Origin: an uncultured Rhodospirillales bacterium
GTDB taxonomy: Bacteria > Pseudomonadota > Alphaproteobacteria > Acetobacterales > Acetobacteraceae
Reading direction: 5' to 3'
NCBI GenBank assembly: GCA_903928895.1
Contig: CAIYSR010000117.1
Coordinates: 32,001 to 89,733, forward strand
DNA length: 57,733 nt
Positions 39,945 to 57,733 of the stretch are shown one piece after another (position 1 is the stretch's first letter; the number at the start of each line of letters is the position of its first letter). The notes under the pieces are model-generated. The model did no database searches. It worked only from the letters and a program-made list of their open reading frames with translations, and had not been told where the DNA came from. Made by a program: the position numbers and the translations under genes.

Positions 39945-40460
39945 CTAACGCAATGTCCCGCCGAAAAACGATGCCGGCGCCAGCAGCACCCAGGCCCACA
40001 GGAAGGCTGACAGCCAGTTCGCCAGCTGGAAAACGAGCGGCGGCATTTCGAAAATTCCGCACAGCAGAGGGATTGTTGCACGCAGCGGGCTGAAGAACCG
40101 GCACAGCACGACGCTCATGGCGCCAAAACGGCGAAAGAATCGCTCGCCGCGCGGCAACAGTTCCGGATGTCGGTTCAGCGGCCAGACATGGCGGACCTTG
40201 TGTTTGAGATGAAAGCCGATCGAGTACGACACCCAGTCGCCCAGCCCCGAACCCAGGCTCACCGCGAACCAGACCGGCCAGAACTCGATCCCGCTGACCC
40301 CGATCAGCGTCCCCATCGCCAGCATGATGGTGATGCCCGGCACCACCATGGTGACGAACGCCAAGGCCTTGAGAAAGCCGAGCGTAAACGCGATCGGCAC
40401 CGCGTACGCCGCGTGATCCTGGATGAAGCCGATGATCGCGGCGGCGGCGTCCTGGAACAC
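39945..40460 (-). CDS. DedA family membrane protein
   Basis: A 171-residue protein with four to five helices and the DedA hallmark FRRFGAMSVVLCRFFSPLRA plus an upstream VPG segment and GDWVSYSIG. DedA proteins are envelope proteins linked to lipid-carrier transport. The start is taken as GTG at 40460, one base after the acylphosphatase stop; TTG at 40475 is possible. Last gene of the rarA-to-dedA run. Confidence 0.85.
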   Translation of the reverse strand: MFQDAAAAIIGFIQDHAAYAVPIAFTLGFLKALAFVTMVVPGITIMLAMGTLIGVSGIEFWPVWFAVSLGSGLGDWVSYSIGFHLKHKVRHVWPLNRHPELLPRGERFFRRFGAMSVVLCRFFSPLRATIPLLCGIFEMPPLVFQLANWLSAFLWAWVLLAPASFFGGTLR

Positions 40461-52342: not shown

Positions 52343-52534
52343 ATGCCCGTATCCAACCACCCCGCTTCGGACACCAAGCCCGCCGCCTTCAAGGCTGCCT
52401 CGGTAAAGATTGGCCTGTCCCCGGTGCGCGTCCAGGTGCAGCCGCCGGCGACCTCGCCCAGTCTCGCGCGGCGCCGGGCGCTGGCCAAAGCCATCCGCGG
52501 TGTCACGATGGTGCCCGCCGTAGCCGGTGAGTGA
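52343..52534 (+). CDS. small partner protein of the 52527 gene
   Basis: A 63-residue basic protein. The C-terminal part (GLSPVRVQVQPPATSPSL, then RRRALAKAIRGVTMVPA) is a pattern I have seen directly upstream of homologues of the next gene, so the two are probably a conserved pair. No domain name is known to me. The last eight bases overlap the following gene. GTG at 52271 is a longer alternative start, without support. Confidence 0.55.
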   Translation: MPVSNHPASDTKPAAFKAASVKIGLSPVRVQVQPPATSPSLARRRALAKAIRGVTMVPAVAGE

Positions 52535-53171
52535 AGACGACGGCGCCAGCCCGGCCTACAATCTCGGCGTCTTCATCAACTGCCCGTTCGACCCCGCCTA
52601 CCGCCCGATGTTTGACGCCATCGTCTTCGCGGTGATGGCCTGCGGCCATGTTGCCCGCTCCGCCCTGGAATTCGACGATGCCGGCCGCACCCGCTTCACC
52701 AAGATCACCGACCTGATCGGCCAATGCCGCTTCGGCATCCATGACCTATCCCGCACCGACCTCAGCGCCCCCGGCGGACTGCCGCGCTTCAACATGTCAT
52801 TGGAACTGGGCCTGTTCCTTGGCGCAGTCCATTTCGGCGCCACGCCGCAGGGGCGCAAACAATGCCTGATCCTCGATTCCGAGCGCACTCGCTACCGCGA
52901 CTTCGCCTCCGACCTCGCCGGCCATGACATCAAGGCGCACGGCAACGACCCGGCGCGGACAATCACCGCCGTGCGTGACTTCCTACGCACGGCCAGCGGT
53001 ATGCGCCTGCCCGGCGGGGCGGCCGTGGCAGCCGACCATGGCCGCTTCACCGAAGCCGTCCCAGACATCCTGCGCAGGGCTCGGATCACGCCCGAGGAAA
53101 TGACCTTCGCCGACACCACGACCATGATCTTTGACTGGCTGACCCTGAGAGAGCCACGCGCCGGTGCCTGA
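52527..53171 (+). CDS. VFINCPFD-type protein, possible defence effector/sensor
   Basis: A 214-residue soluble protein, GTG start within the end of its small partner gene. Key blocks: VFINCPFDPAYRPMFDAIVF (15-34), ALEFDDAGRTRFTKI, CRFGIHDLSR and LPRFNMSLELGLFLGA. The Rossmann-like start with an acidic/asparagine-rich loop recalls TIR-like or nucleoside deoxyribosyltransferase-like folds, and the conserved LPRFNM-ELG helix could hold a catalytic Glu. I associate the family with defence islands but know of no settled function. Located in accessory DNA next to a tRNA and a transposase. Confidence 0.6.
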   Translation: MSEDDGASPAYNLGVFINCPFDPAYRPMFDAIVFAVMACGHVARSALEFDDAGRTRFTKITDLIGQCRFGIHDLSRTDLSAPGGLPRFNMSLELGLFLGAVHFGATPQGRKQCLILDSERTRYRDFASDLAGHDIKAHGNDPARTITAVRDFLRTASGMRLPGGAAVAADHGRFTEAVPDILRRARITPEEMTFADTTTMIFDWLTLREPRAGA

Positions 53172-53685: not shown

Positions 53686-55034
53686 ATGGAACACCCAGCG
53701 GGCGAATCGGATGATGGGTCTCTGCGGGTCGATTTCGACCGGAGGCTGAAGCTGGAATTCCACGGCAGCCGGATCACCTCCGACGCCGGCTTGCTGGCCT
53801 ACCGGGAACTGGACGACGCGCTCGGCCTCTCCGATCTGGCCGGCGCGGCGCTGTCGGAATGCCGCCGTGGCAAGAACACCCGCCACCTGCTGACCGGCCT
53901 GTTGCGCCAGTCGGTGTTCGGCCGCCTCGCCGGGTATGAAGACGTTAACGACGCCGATCGTCTTGCCCATGATCCCGCGATGCGCGCCGTGGTGGATCGC
54001 ACCGGCCTGGATCGTCAGGCCGCCTCGACCAGCCAGATGGGCCGTTTCGAGACGGGATGGCTGACCAGCGAGGCCAATCTCGCGGCATTGGCCGATCTGT
54101 CCGGCGTCTCGATCGACCGGGTGCATGCGCGCCGCCCGCAAACGACCATCGTGCTGGACATGGACAGCAGCGTCAGTGAGACGCATGGCGCTCAGGAAGG
54201 CAGCGCCTACAATGGGAACTTCGGTTGCAGCTGCTACCACCCGCTGTTCGTGTTCAACCAGTTCGGCGATCTGGAACGGTGTAGCCTTCGCTCCGGCAAC
54301 GCCCACAGCGCCCCCGACTGGCGCGATGTGCTGGAACCGGTGGTGGCGCTTTACCGGGGCAAGATGAAGCGCCGCTACTTCCGCGGCGATGCTGGCTATG
54401 CCAACCCCGGCATCTAGTTCCTCGAAGGCGAGGGCTACAAATACACGATCAGGCTGCCGGCCAACGCGGTCCTGCAAGAGTGCATCGGGTGGTTGCTCAA
54501 GCGTCCGGTGGGACGGCCGCCGCATGATGTCCGCCGCTATTACGCCAGCTTCAGCTACCAGGCGGCGTCATGGACCAGGTCCCGCCGGGTGGTGGCGAAG
54601 GTCGAGCGGCACCCCGGTGAGTTATATCCGCGCGTCGGCTTCATTGTGACCAACATGGCCAGGCCGCCCGAACGGGGACGCTGTTCTACAATCAGCGAGG
54701 CACCGCCGAGCAGCACATCAAAGAAGGCAAGAACGCGATCATCTGGACCCGACTGTCCTGCCGCCGCTTCGACGCGAACGCGGTGCGGTTGCAACTGCAC
54801 GCCCTGGCCTACAGCCCCGCCAACTTCCTCCGCACCCTGACCTTGCCCGAGGCGGTCAGCCATTGGTCGATGACCTCCTTACGGGACCGGTTGGTCAAGA
54901 TCGTCGCGAAGATCGTCATGCACGGGCGATCGATCACGTTTCAGATGGCCGAGGCTATGATCTCGCGCGGCCTATTCCAGCAGATCCTCGACGCCAACGC
55001 GGCGTTGCGTCCGTCGCTACCGGCACGATGTTGA
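53686..55034 (+). pseudogene. IS1380-family transposase, disrupted
   Basis: Near full-length (about 449 codons). The first part (243 codons) has the family's FHGSRITSDAGLLAYREL opening and the DDE-type LDMDSSVSETHG block; a TAG at 54415-54417 interrupts it, the frame then continues (FLEGEGYKYTIRLPANAV), and a one-base loss near 54670 shifts to the frame holding FYNQRGTAEQHIKEGKNAI, the family's later catalytic block. Two lesions make it inactive. I could not place the terminal inverted repeats. Confidence 0.85.
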
Positions 55035-55264
55035 GGGACGGTGGCATGACCGGCCGGGCGGACCATCGACAGGAGGGGTGCGTCCTGGTGTCGGCCGGAA
55101 GCGCGGCAATCGCCTCGGAACCGCGAGCACAGTGCCGGTCACGTGGCAAAAGGCGGGATCACGGGACCGCCGGTATTGATCGCCGCCAGAGCCGAGGTTA
55201 TCGTTCACCCGAGATGCCCGCAGGGGGCGAGCACATGGGAAATGTTGGCCACAGGGAACGGCGC

Positions 55265-57472
55265 ATGATCCGCACCTCATCCGCCCTCGCCCTCGTGGCC
55301 GCCCTCTTGCACGCCGTCCCGCTCGCCGCCGAAACCCCGCCACTGAAACTCGCCGCCCCCTTCTCCGCCACCGGCCCCGCTGCCGCCGGCGGCGTGCCGG
55401 CGCTCAACGCCATCCGCCTCGGGGTCGACGAGGCCAACGCAGCCGGCGACGGCCCGCCGATCCTGCTCGACACCTATGACGACCGCAGCACCGATGACGG
55501 CGCCCGCGAAGCCGCCCGCCAAATCATCGCCGGCGACGCACTCGTCGTCGTCGGCCCCGGCACCACCACCTCCGGCCTTGCCGCCGGACCGGTCTACGGC
55601 GAGGCTGGCCTCGCCGCCATCGTCCCGTACGCCCACGGCGCCGGCGGCTCGACCAGCCCCACCACCTTCCGCCCGGTGTTCAGCAACGCCGACATGGGGG
55701 AGGCGCTCGCCCAGTATCTCCGCCAGGTCCTCGGCGCCGCCCAGGCGGTGGTGATCTACCGCGACAACGGCTACGGCCGCCCGATTGCCGCCGGGTTCGA
55801 GCGGGTCGGCGCACAACTCGGCCTCGCCACCGTGCGGCGTCCCTTCGCCACTCCTGCCGAGGCCGCCGACGCCGCCCGCCAGACCGCACTCGACCCGGCA
55901 CACCCGGCCATCGTGCTCGCCATGATCGACCCCGACGCCGCCCCGGTCGTCACCGCCCTGGCCCGCACGCGGACGAGACCACTCGTCCTCGGCACCAGCG
56001 CGATCGCTACCGACGCGTTCGCCGAAAATTTTGCCCGCGAGCCGGAAACCGCCGCCGATCCGGGCTTCTTCACCGACGGCATCTACGCGGTCTCGCCGCT
56101 GATGCTCGACAGCGCCGGCGCCGAGGCGCTCGGCTTCGCTGGCCGCTACCGTGCCCGCTTCGGCCGCGAGCCGCGCTGGGAGGCGGCGCAAGGCTACGAT
56201 GCGGCCCGCCTGGCGATCGCCGCAATGCGTGCGGCAGCCACAGCGGCGCCCGATCTGGCCGCTCGCCGCTCCGCGGTGCGGACCTGGCTCGCCGGGCGCG
56301 ACAGTCCGGCCCACGCGGTCGCGAGCCTCACCGGGCCGTTGTGGTTCGACCCCGAGCGCGGCCGCCAACAGCCCACGCGAATCGGCCGCTTCCACGGCAC
56401 CCTGTTCGAATCTGCCCCTGTGCAATTGATTCCGGCCGCAAACCCGTCGGCCGCCGAACGTGCCGCCGGCGGCCTCGTCGCCCTCGGTGACGGTCGCTTC
56501 GCGACCCGCCAGCAGGTCGTCGCCACCGGCATCTTCGTCAACGAGATCCCGCGCATCGACATCGCGCAGTCCACCTTCACCGCCGATTTCTATCTCTGGC
56601 TGCGTTTCGCCCGCGGCACCGCTGGCGCGGATCCCACCGAGCTCGATTTCCCCGATCTGCTGCGTGGCAGCTTCGATCCGCGCCGGCCGGCCGCACAGGG
56701 TGACCTCGATGACGGCACCACCTACCGGCTGTGGCGCACGCGCGGTGACTTCAAAAATGATTTCGACCTCCATCGTTACCCGCTGGACCGCCAGGTTTTA
56801 GCGGTGCGCATGTTCAACGCCCGCGCTGCGTCCGACCGGCTGGTCTATGTGCAGGACCGCCGCTCAATCGATCCCAGCCTCGGCGCGCTGCGGACTTCCG
56901 CCGCTCCGACCGAGAGCACCGGAATCGCGCCCGCCGCCTTCCGCAACCTCACCCAATGGGACCCGCTGCGTGCCGAGCAGTTGCGCGACGTGCTGGTGAC
57001 CCGCTCCGCCCTCGGCGACCCGCGGCTGGTCGGCGTCGAGCGGGTGCGCGAGCTTTCCGGCTACCGCGTCGAGATCGAGGTACGCCGCCGAACGCTGGCG
57101 ACGTTGGCGAAAACCTTGCTGCCGCTCGGCATTATGGCGCTGATCATGCTCGCCTCGCTGTGGTTCCCCCACGGACTGGTCAAGGAGAAGATCACGGTTG
57201 CGATTACCGGCGCGCTCTCCGGTGCGGTGCTGCTGGCCTCGGTGAATTCACAGCTGGGCGCCGTCGGCTACACCATGGCAGTGGAATACGTGTTCTACGT
57301 CTTCTTCACCCTCTGCCTGCTTTGCATCGTTGCCGTGCTGGCGGCCGAACAACTCCGCGTCGCCGGACACGCCAGGCGCGCGGTCACGACCGAACACCTG
57401 ACCCGCCTGATTTTCGCCGCCGCCATCCTCGCCACCCTTGCCGCCGCCGCACTGGCCACCACACGCTGGTAA
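55265..57472 (+). CDS. periplasmic-binding-domain / pentameric ligand-gated ion channel fusion
   Basis: A 735-residue protein. ATG at 55265 follows GGGAA by seven bases and begins a signal peptide (1-22). Residues 27-385 form a LivJ/ANF-type binding domain (LKLAAPFSATGPAA, VVGPGTTTSGLA, YRDNGYGRPIAAGF). Residues 417-608 match the extracellular domain of GLIC-type channels: ATGIFVNEIPRIDIAQSTF and the Pro-loop HRYPLDRQVL (503-512). Helices M1 612-634, M2 642-662, M3 670-694, M4 712-732 follow. M2 has E641 at -1', K642 at 0', T644 at 2', T648 at 6', L651 at 9' and V655 at 13', the pattern of cation-selective members. Flanked by an IS1380 remnant and an IS5-type element. Confidence 0.88.
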   Translation: MIRTSSALALVAALLHAVPLAAETPPLKLAAPFSATGPAAAGGVPALNAIRLGVDEANAAGDGPPILLDTYDDRSTDDGAREAARQIIAGDALVVVGPGTTTSGLAAGPVYGEAGLAAIVPYAHGAGGSTSPTTFRPVFSNADMGEALAQYLRQVLGAAQAVVIYRDNGYGRPIAAGFERVGAQLGLATVRRPFATPAEAADAARQTALDPAHPAIVLAMIDPDAAPVVTALARTRTRPLVLGTSAIATDAFAENFAREPETAADPGFFTDGIYAVSPLMLDSAGAEALGFAGRYRARFGREPRWEAAQGYDAARLAIAAMRAAATAAPDLAARRSAVRTWLAGRDSPAHAVASLTGPLWFDPERGRQQPTRIGRFHGTLFESAPVQLIPAANPSAAERAAGGLVALGDGRFATRQQVVATGIFVNEIPRIDIAQSTFTADFYLWLRFARGTAGADPTELDFPDLLRGSFDPRRPAAQGDLDDGTTYRLWRTRGDFKNDFDLHRYPLDRQVLAVRMFNARAASDRLVYVQDRRSIDPSLGALRTSAAPTESTGIAPAAFRNLTQWDPLRAEQLRDVLVTRSALGDPRLVGVERVRELSGYRVEIEVRRRTLATLAKTLLPLGIMALIMLASLWFPHGLVKEKITVAITGALSGAVLLASVNSQLGAVGYTMAVEYVFYVFFTLCLLCIVAVLAAEQLRVAGHARRAVTTEHLTRLIFAAAILATLAAAALATTRW

Positions 57473-57562: not shown

Positions 57563-57733
57563 GTGTCCATCCGGAAACAGCTTGAATCTCTAGAATCACA
57601 TGTGATTCCCTCTCTGTGGAACCGATTCGCAGGAGTGCAACGATGTGGACGACCGAGAACCGTGGCCGCTATGACCGCACCAGGCGGCGCTATCCGAGCG
57701 ATCTGACGGACGAGGAGTGGGGCTTAATCAAGC
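57563..57733 (+). mobile_element. left end of an IS5-type element, cut by the window edge
   Basis: Starts near TGTCCATCCGGAAACAG; the remnant at 26800 is a diverged copy of the same stretch. The leader contains a perfect 16-bp palindrome GAATCACATGTGATTC (57593-57608). The exact terminal inverted repeat cannot be fixed without the other end. Confidence 0.8.
57643..57733 (+). CDS. IS5-family transposase, N-terminal part
   Basis: ATG at 57643 with AGGAG seven bases upstream. The 30 visible residues include RYPSDLTDEEWGLIK, the usual N-terminus of IS5-family transposases with a DUF4096-type domain. It runs off the window in frame, so the copy may be intact. Confidence 0.85.
   Translation, partial: MWTTENRGRYDRTRRRYPSDLTDEEWGLIK

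Follow-up and report, generated by a model that had tools for sequence, protein, structure and literature searches.

A LivJ-type binding domain fused to a Pro-loop channel subunit in an uncultured Acetobacteraceae bacterium, and relatives that carry the same predicted sensor on an MscS pore

One gene of an uncultured Rhodospirillales bacterium joins a LivJ-type periplasmic binding (PBP-I) domain to the extracellular domain (ECD) and membrane helices of a Pro-loop receptor. It lies near the end of the window, by which we mean the whole stretch of 57,733 nucleotides that was analysed. We suggest, with moderate confidence, that its product is a Pro-loop channel subunit whose fused LivJ-type domain is the ligand sensor, so that the channel would be driven by the binding domain. 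Relatives of the protein carry the same two extracellular modules on an unrelated MscS pore. From their sequences, and with slightly greater confidence, we propose that the PBP domain and a shortened ECD form a sensor-transducer cassette used on two unrelated pores, and that the Pro-loop has decayed on MscS because its pentameric partner is gone. We regard these MscS-pore relatives as the most valuable outcome of the analysis.

Results

The fusion gene occupies positions 55265..57472 of the forward strand as an intact frame of 735 codons without a stop, and a possible ribosome-binding site, AGGGA (55253..55257, forward strand, read from the sequence), lies 7 nt ahead of the ATG. The signal peptide (residues 1-22, 55265..55330) contains a hydropathy peak at residues 4-22, and its end was placed by eye after ...LAA, following the cleavage rule. 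The PBP-I domain (residues 27-395, 55343..56449) is followed by the receptor ECD (residues 417-608, 56513..57088), located by the family alignment and by profile alignment to GLIC. Within this ECD lies the Pro-loop motif YPLD (residues 505-508, 56777..56788). In 19-residue hydropathy windows, two overlapping peaks, 611-629 and 621-639, were taken as M1 (residues 611-639, 57095..57181). The next peak, 643-661, together with the family M2 table, defines the M2 pore helix from E641 (-1') to residue 661 (57185..57247), and the last two are M3 (residues 676-694, 57290..57346) and M4 (residues 715-733, 57407..57463); a marginal peak at 215-233 falls within the PBP domain. The frame, the domain matches and the hydropathy bear out the initial annotation, which had described a signal peptide, a LivJ-type domain, a receptor ECD and four helices in a single frame. 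The gene is real and probably functional.

A search for related loci returned 27 from 99 candidate stretches. From 24 of the 27, 28 fusion proteins were taken; L040 has the PBP part only, L041 and L042 have the channel part only, and the second fusion copy in L026, cut by its contig, was left out. Together with the window protein these make the 29 rows of alignment A1, with 21-53% identity to the window protein. The phyla represented are Pseudomonadota (alpha and gamma classes), Chloroflexota, Cyanobacteriota and Thermodesulfobacteriota, with one record lacking a phylum. When the PBP halves (28 rows) and the channel halves (27 rows) are placed in separate quick trees, the same five clades emerge from each, with SH-aLRT values of 98-100 and 89-100, respectively. 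Thus, the two halves have long been inherited together. That an assembly or annotation artefact has joined two separate genes is a thought prompted by the draft assembly of 191 contigs, and a database search for the same two-domain order had been proposed as a check on the fusion reading. The order is common to those 28 further proteins from 24 loci in four phyla, and the trees of the two halves are congruent, so the family data refute a two-gene assembly error and we give it practically no credence.

The channel half of the window protein is nearest to that of L017 (64%), and its PBP half to that of L016 (51%); this mismatch may reflect small-scale recombination between the halves. At L037:6670-8981, two adjoining frames hold a PBP piece and a channel piece, respectively; this copy, beside an intact one, is either broken or genuinely split. 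The product of L062:1495-3705 (reverse strand) has a weak Cache-domain match, below the cut-off, ahead of a pLGIC-like C-terminus; Cache fusions have also been reported (PMC549065).

The LivJ-type assignment of the N-terminal half, also made in the initial annotation, is confirmed by Pfam, where Peripla_BP_6 matches residues 27-340 (E 2.7e-34; score 119.8 bits, cut-off 31.7), and by the profile of the PBP halves, which matches E. coli LivJ (2liv) with E 3.1e-37. The same profile also matches the ligand domains of metabotropic receptors. What is the ligand? In the window protein, the residues aligned with S79, T102, Y202 and E226 of LivJ, all four ligand contacts there, are T101, H124, I221 and S245, T101 being a conservative change. 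Of the set S/T79, T102 and D/E226, the window protein therefore keeps only the first. Docking results for LivJ have S79 and T102 making polar contacts and Y202 a hydrophobic one (PMC6983066). Among the 30 pentameric-pore fusions (the 29 of A1 plus L046 from genome G338), 27 have S/T at LivJ position 79, 18 have T at 102, and 14 have D/E at 226, with all three present in 13. For these 13, it is reasonable to suppose an amino acid as the ligand. This is less so for the window protein, which probably binds its ligand otherwise than in the classical amino-acid mode of LivJ. Since the contacts at T102, Y202 and E226 are replaced, the earlier description of the channel as amino-acid-gated is weakened, although the ligand-sensing design itself is supported. 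Residues D72, D73, G97, R335 and F361 are the same in all 28 PBP halves compared.

Single-sequence searches detect the channel half of the window protein faintly. Neur_chan_memb of Pfam matches with E 0.035, and the NCBIfam models LGIC_1 and LIC with 2e-6 and 2.6e-6, but none of the three reaches its curated cut-off. A PDB search matches the C-terminal part to GABA-rho (4.7e-5), GluCl (2.6e-4), one GLIC chimera (0.004) and, with E of 0.1 or more, GLIC itself, and the same search of the protein returns LivJ-type proteins as well. The profile of 27 family channel halves, by contrast with the single sequence, matches GLIC (3eam) with E 1.7e-21 over positions 16-319 of 322, from the ECD to M4. Chimeras of GLIC with animal receptors head its match list, and ELIC does not appear among the best 60 of 298 matches. 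The alignment pairs the family Pro-loop with RYPFD of GLIC and M2 with M2; failure of residues 417-735 to align at these two places had been named beforehand as an outcome that would speak against the channel assignment.

The Pro-loop proline and aspartate of the window protein are P506 and D508, and their counterparts are present in 30/30 and 24/30 of the pentameric-pore fusions. In the superfamily, no residue other than this proline is said to be absolutely conserved, and the aspartate is described as pairing with an arginine before M1 (PMC4795631). This arginine is R608 in the window protein and is kept in at least 90% of the rows of A1. The loop HRYPLDRQVL has no flanking cysteines, which leaves the window protein outside the strict Cys-loop group. 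The protein may work like a Cys-loop receptor without strict membership. In all four printed alignments to GLIC or its chimeras, one stretch of 20 target residues has no counterpart in the family profile. This gap lies after strand 2 and before the loop A region. The shortened ECD would thus seem to be more a transducer than a ligand site. An hWxP motif before strand 4 is said by Tasneem et al. to mark forms nearer to the animal receptors (PMC549065).

The M2 residues had been listed as Glu -1', Lys 0', Thr 2', Thr 6', Leu 9' and Val 13', a set familiar from animal receptors that select cations, and the family M2 table shows that this is right for the window protein. It does not hold as a family trait, since Glu -1' is found in only 7 of the 29 members of A1. 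Near relatives have Pro-Arg (L016, L018 and L019), Ala-Lys (L020, L022 and L046, the last from outside the 29 rows of the table) or Ser-Lys (L021) at -1' and 0'. By the rule known from animal receptors, Glu -1' predicts passage of cations for the window protein, and a cation-selective pore is plausible here, but not for the whole family; some close relatives might not pass cations. In GLIC, the charged residue before M2 is at -2', against -1' in the window protein.

The same sensor also occurs on a different pore. In a protein of 1006 residues from genome G036, which belongs to the same bacterial family, Peripla_BP_6 is followed by a part homologous to the ECD of the window protein and, after that, by an MscS domain. 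Nine such hybrids were scanned, and all nine have both PF13458 (Peripla_BP_6) and PF00924 (MS_channel_2nd). Seven have the plain PBP-ECD-MscS order, at L044:6422-9442 (-), L083:4859-8071 (-), L084:4879-8001 (-), L085:3970-7227 (+), L086:175-3183 (+), L087:541-3489 (-) and L095:1-3072 (+); a cNMP_binding domain is added in the other two, L081:1497-5072 (-) and L075:7824-11195 (+). Nine records of Azospirillum plasmids give matches that span the PBP and ECD and leave out the pore; the single copy scanned, that of Azospirillum sp. B510, has MscS and cNMP-binding domains in addition. Hybrids such as WP_042444963.1 of this strain, annotated as an ABC transporter substrate-binding protein, share with the window protein homologous PBP and ECD modules in the same order, and differ in having an MscS domain in place of the pentameric pore and in lacking [YF]P.

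With E up to 1e-8, the channel-half profile matches 15 of 385 class genomes and 10 of 249 family genomes, G000 being common to both. The class matches comprise PBP with a pentameric pore in G000 and G338, PBP-ECD-MscS in G109, G163, G335 and G436, and nine genomes in which the frames matched by the channel-half profile have no PBP-half match. The family matches are the window, PBP-ECD-MscS in G036, G483 and G620 (two), and six frames, 343-493 residues long, that the PBP-half profile does not match; two of these, L088 and L091, run off the end of their own stretch at the N-terminus and could be incomplete. When the ECD and MscS part of the G036 protein was searched against 289 class genomes, 16 were matched; among the matches listed, it is the MscS-side part of the query that aligns, and the search added little.

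The ECDs of the hybrids are matched by the channel-half profile, and in a profile-profile comparison a profile of five of them aligns with columns 3-179 of it, that is, with the ECD only (E 3.6e-32). The hybrid-ECD profile alone matches no solved pLGIC in the PDB, so the link of the hybrid ECD to pLGICs runs through the fusion family. Several ECD positions are kept in both groups (fusions, then hybrids): W445, F462 and F496, each 28/30 and 9/9, and D531, 29/30 and 9/9; R447 (29/30 and 7/9) and W565 (30/30 and 7/9) are less kept in the hybrids. The Pro-loop behaves differently. Its [YF]P is present in 30/30 fusions and 0/9 hybrids, the proline alone in 30/30 and 4/9, and an acidic residue (D/E) two positions on in 27/30 and 1/9, although the nine hybrids are not independent of each other and count as few events. 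Among the fusions, the acidic residue is lacking in the downstream copies of L034 and L038 and in L037:9206-11359. Loss of the Pro-loop without the pentameric pore is what would be expected if the Pro-loop couples the ECD to that pore.

In an unrooted tree of PBP plus ECD (36 rows, six of them hybrids; L086, L087 and L095, found later, are outside it), five hybrids form one clade (98/98) among the pentameric-pore fusions, with neighbouring branches at 83/99 and 91/83. The branches of L044 and L075 are long, that of L044 very much so, and L044 stands apart from the other five, so the hybrid label needs two changes on the tree. A single origin is nevertheless compatible with the starred branches. 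The swap was likely from the pentameric pore to MscS, a direction read from an unrooted tree.

The surroundings of the window gene say little about its partners. On its upstream side there are a broken transposase, a hypothetical gene and dehydrogenases. No operon partner is visible in the window, and in an all-against-all comparison of 26 loci (window from base 40001) the fusion is all that it shares with the others. The initial annotation placed the gene between two transposons, which is loosely right in that there are transposase pieces on both sides. The upstream piece (53686..54840, forward strand) is a frame-broken DDE_Tnp_1_4 remnant in which two separate pieces match PF13701, with five further, partial matches in its own genome. 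The downstream piece (57643..57733, forward strand) is only the first 30 codons of a second, different insertion sequence (IS) transposase, without a Pfam match and cut by the end of the contig, which is also the end of the window. This IS stretch, which we take to be IS5-like, has four further matches in its own genome. Being of different kinds, and one of them decayed, the two IS make no mobile unit. A composite transposon or other mobile element carrying the gene as cargo was considered and rejected; the genome matches of neither flank include the other flank, and the upstream one is broken.

Horizontal movement had been proposed from the transposons. The IS are no proof of it, but gain of the gene by horizontal transfer fits its patchy distribution. 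Four congeners have no match to the fusion, the search of 249 family genomes brought up no second PBP-pentameric fusion, and a contig search found one in a Rhodovastum record of the Acetobacteraceae (L023), which may belong to the same family as the window. None of 72,556 plasmid records has a place covering 80% of the fusion protein. The third-position G+C of the gene is 0.855, compared with 0.80-0.83 in four neighbours, which is likewise in keeping with acquisition. The hypothetical gene at 52527-53171, sought as a marker of the empty site, is absent from the four congeners.

Other loci have recurrent neighbours. Three related alphaproteobacterial loci, L021, L022 and L082, have an EF-G-like gene (Pfam on the L022 copy) next to the fusion; the two Chloroflexota loci have a BTAD regulator there (Pfam on the L024 copy), and several gamma- and deltaproteobacterial loci have binding-protein genes. 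In the gammaproteobacterial L028 (2782-4512) and L032 (6008-7657), Pfam identifies a gene for an oligopeptide-type SBP_bac_5 protein directly upstream, and homologues of the L028 gene are in the same position in L029 (63% identity) and L030 (53%); L035 has no SBP_bac_5 gene directly upstream. Double binding proteins of about 910-960 aa, Peripla_BP_6 plus SBP_bac_5, stand beside the fusions in L034, L036 and L038, and in L037 a double PBP-I/SBP_bac_5 protein lies some kilobases away. A Band_7 gene is near the fusions of L034 (by Pfam) and of L036, L037 and L038 (by homology). Fusion genes are paired in tandem in five loci (L026, L027, L034, L036 and L038); the pairs suggest heteromeric channels, for which their products are candidates.

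Discussion

The binding-protein/channel design is not new. Fusions of PBP-I with ART-LGICs were reported in 2004/5 from Magnetospirillum magnetotacticum and Bradyrhizobium japonicum by Tasneem et al., who proposed a chemotaxis-receptor role for them (PMC549065). By that description, these alphaproteobacterial proteins resemble the window protein, with PBP-I between the signal peptide and the ECD plus 4-TM core. The window gene is another example of this known architecture, of which we found no functional study in the literature searched. In that literature no description of the PBP-ECD-MscS design was found either; subscription papers are thinly covered in it, so absence is not proven.

How might such a channel work? 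The domain order and the GLIC alignment support the earlier claim that a PBP-I domain and a Pro-loop receptor in one gene make a ligand-sensing channel by design. In the mechanism that we propose, five identical subunits would assemble, and each PBP domain would close on a small periplasmic metabolite. Closure would move the shortened ECD, which would serve as a transducer more than as the principal site of ligand binding. From there the Pro-loop would carry the motion to the membrane part, where the M2 pore, with Glu -1', would open to cations. GLIC is homologous to the window protein end to end through ECD and TMD, Pro-loop included, but has no N-terminal PBP domain and an ECD about 20 residues longer. 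As in our proposal, animal glutamate receptors have their membrane signalling domain under the control of a PBP-type domain, although both the ionotropic pore and the metabotropic 7-TM domain are unrelated to the pore of the window protein. DeCLIC, from a Desulfofustis-related bacterium, also has a large periplasmic N-terminal domain (NTD) before its pLGIC core, roughly half of the mass, but consisting of two calcium-binding lobes, NTD1 and NTD2, instead of PBP-I; it was described in 2025 as the only pLGIC with a partly characterised NTD (PMC12664993).

The PBP domain could instead be an accessory that concentrates the ligand and hands it over, or that sets the speed of gating, with the true agonist site at the ECD interface. 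Known MscS pores are heptameric, so a five-fold ECD site would be out of place in the hybrids, where PBP and ECD recur, and the family ECD is short of the residues that GLIC has after strand 2. The ECD of the window protein may, however, still hold a ligand site of its own. Such a role agrees with the suggestion of Tasneem et al. that PBP helps in preliminary concentration or sensing, after which the ligand may bind the channel's own domain (PMC549065), and with DeCLIC, whose unrelated NTD appears to accelerate gating (PMC12664993). On balance we think it unlikely.

Slightly less likely again is a non-sensing structural cap, with gating by protons, divalent ions or the state of the lipid, as in other prokaryotic homologues; GLIC is proton-gated, and the calcium sensitivity of DeCLIC (PMC12664993) points the same way. 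The LivJ ligand contacts are indeed largely replaced in the window copy. Yet the PBP domain is under constraint, because the S/T79, T102, D/E226 set is kept in 13/30 fusions and five residues are invariant in the PBP halves. We prefer the PBP domain as the ligand sensor of the channel, and since relatives carry it, together with the ECD, on the unrelated MscS pore, the two modules would form an exchangeable sensor.

Conclusions

To our knowledge, most prokaryotic pLGICs have no known natural ligand. The fused binding domain gives a direct handle, in that the domain alone could lead to the ligand and from there to gating. The differences at -1' mean that ion selectivity may vary between close relatives, which is testable, and the Pro-loop comparison is a testable point on the coupling of ectodomain and pore. 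If the cassette proposal is true, ligand-gated MscS-type channels with an ectodomain like that of neurotransmitter receptors would be a real bacterial class, and the hybrids would be a natural domain-swap experiment on how the ectodomain of a pLGIC is coupled to its pore.
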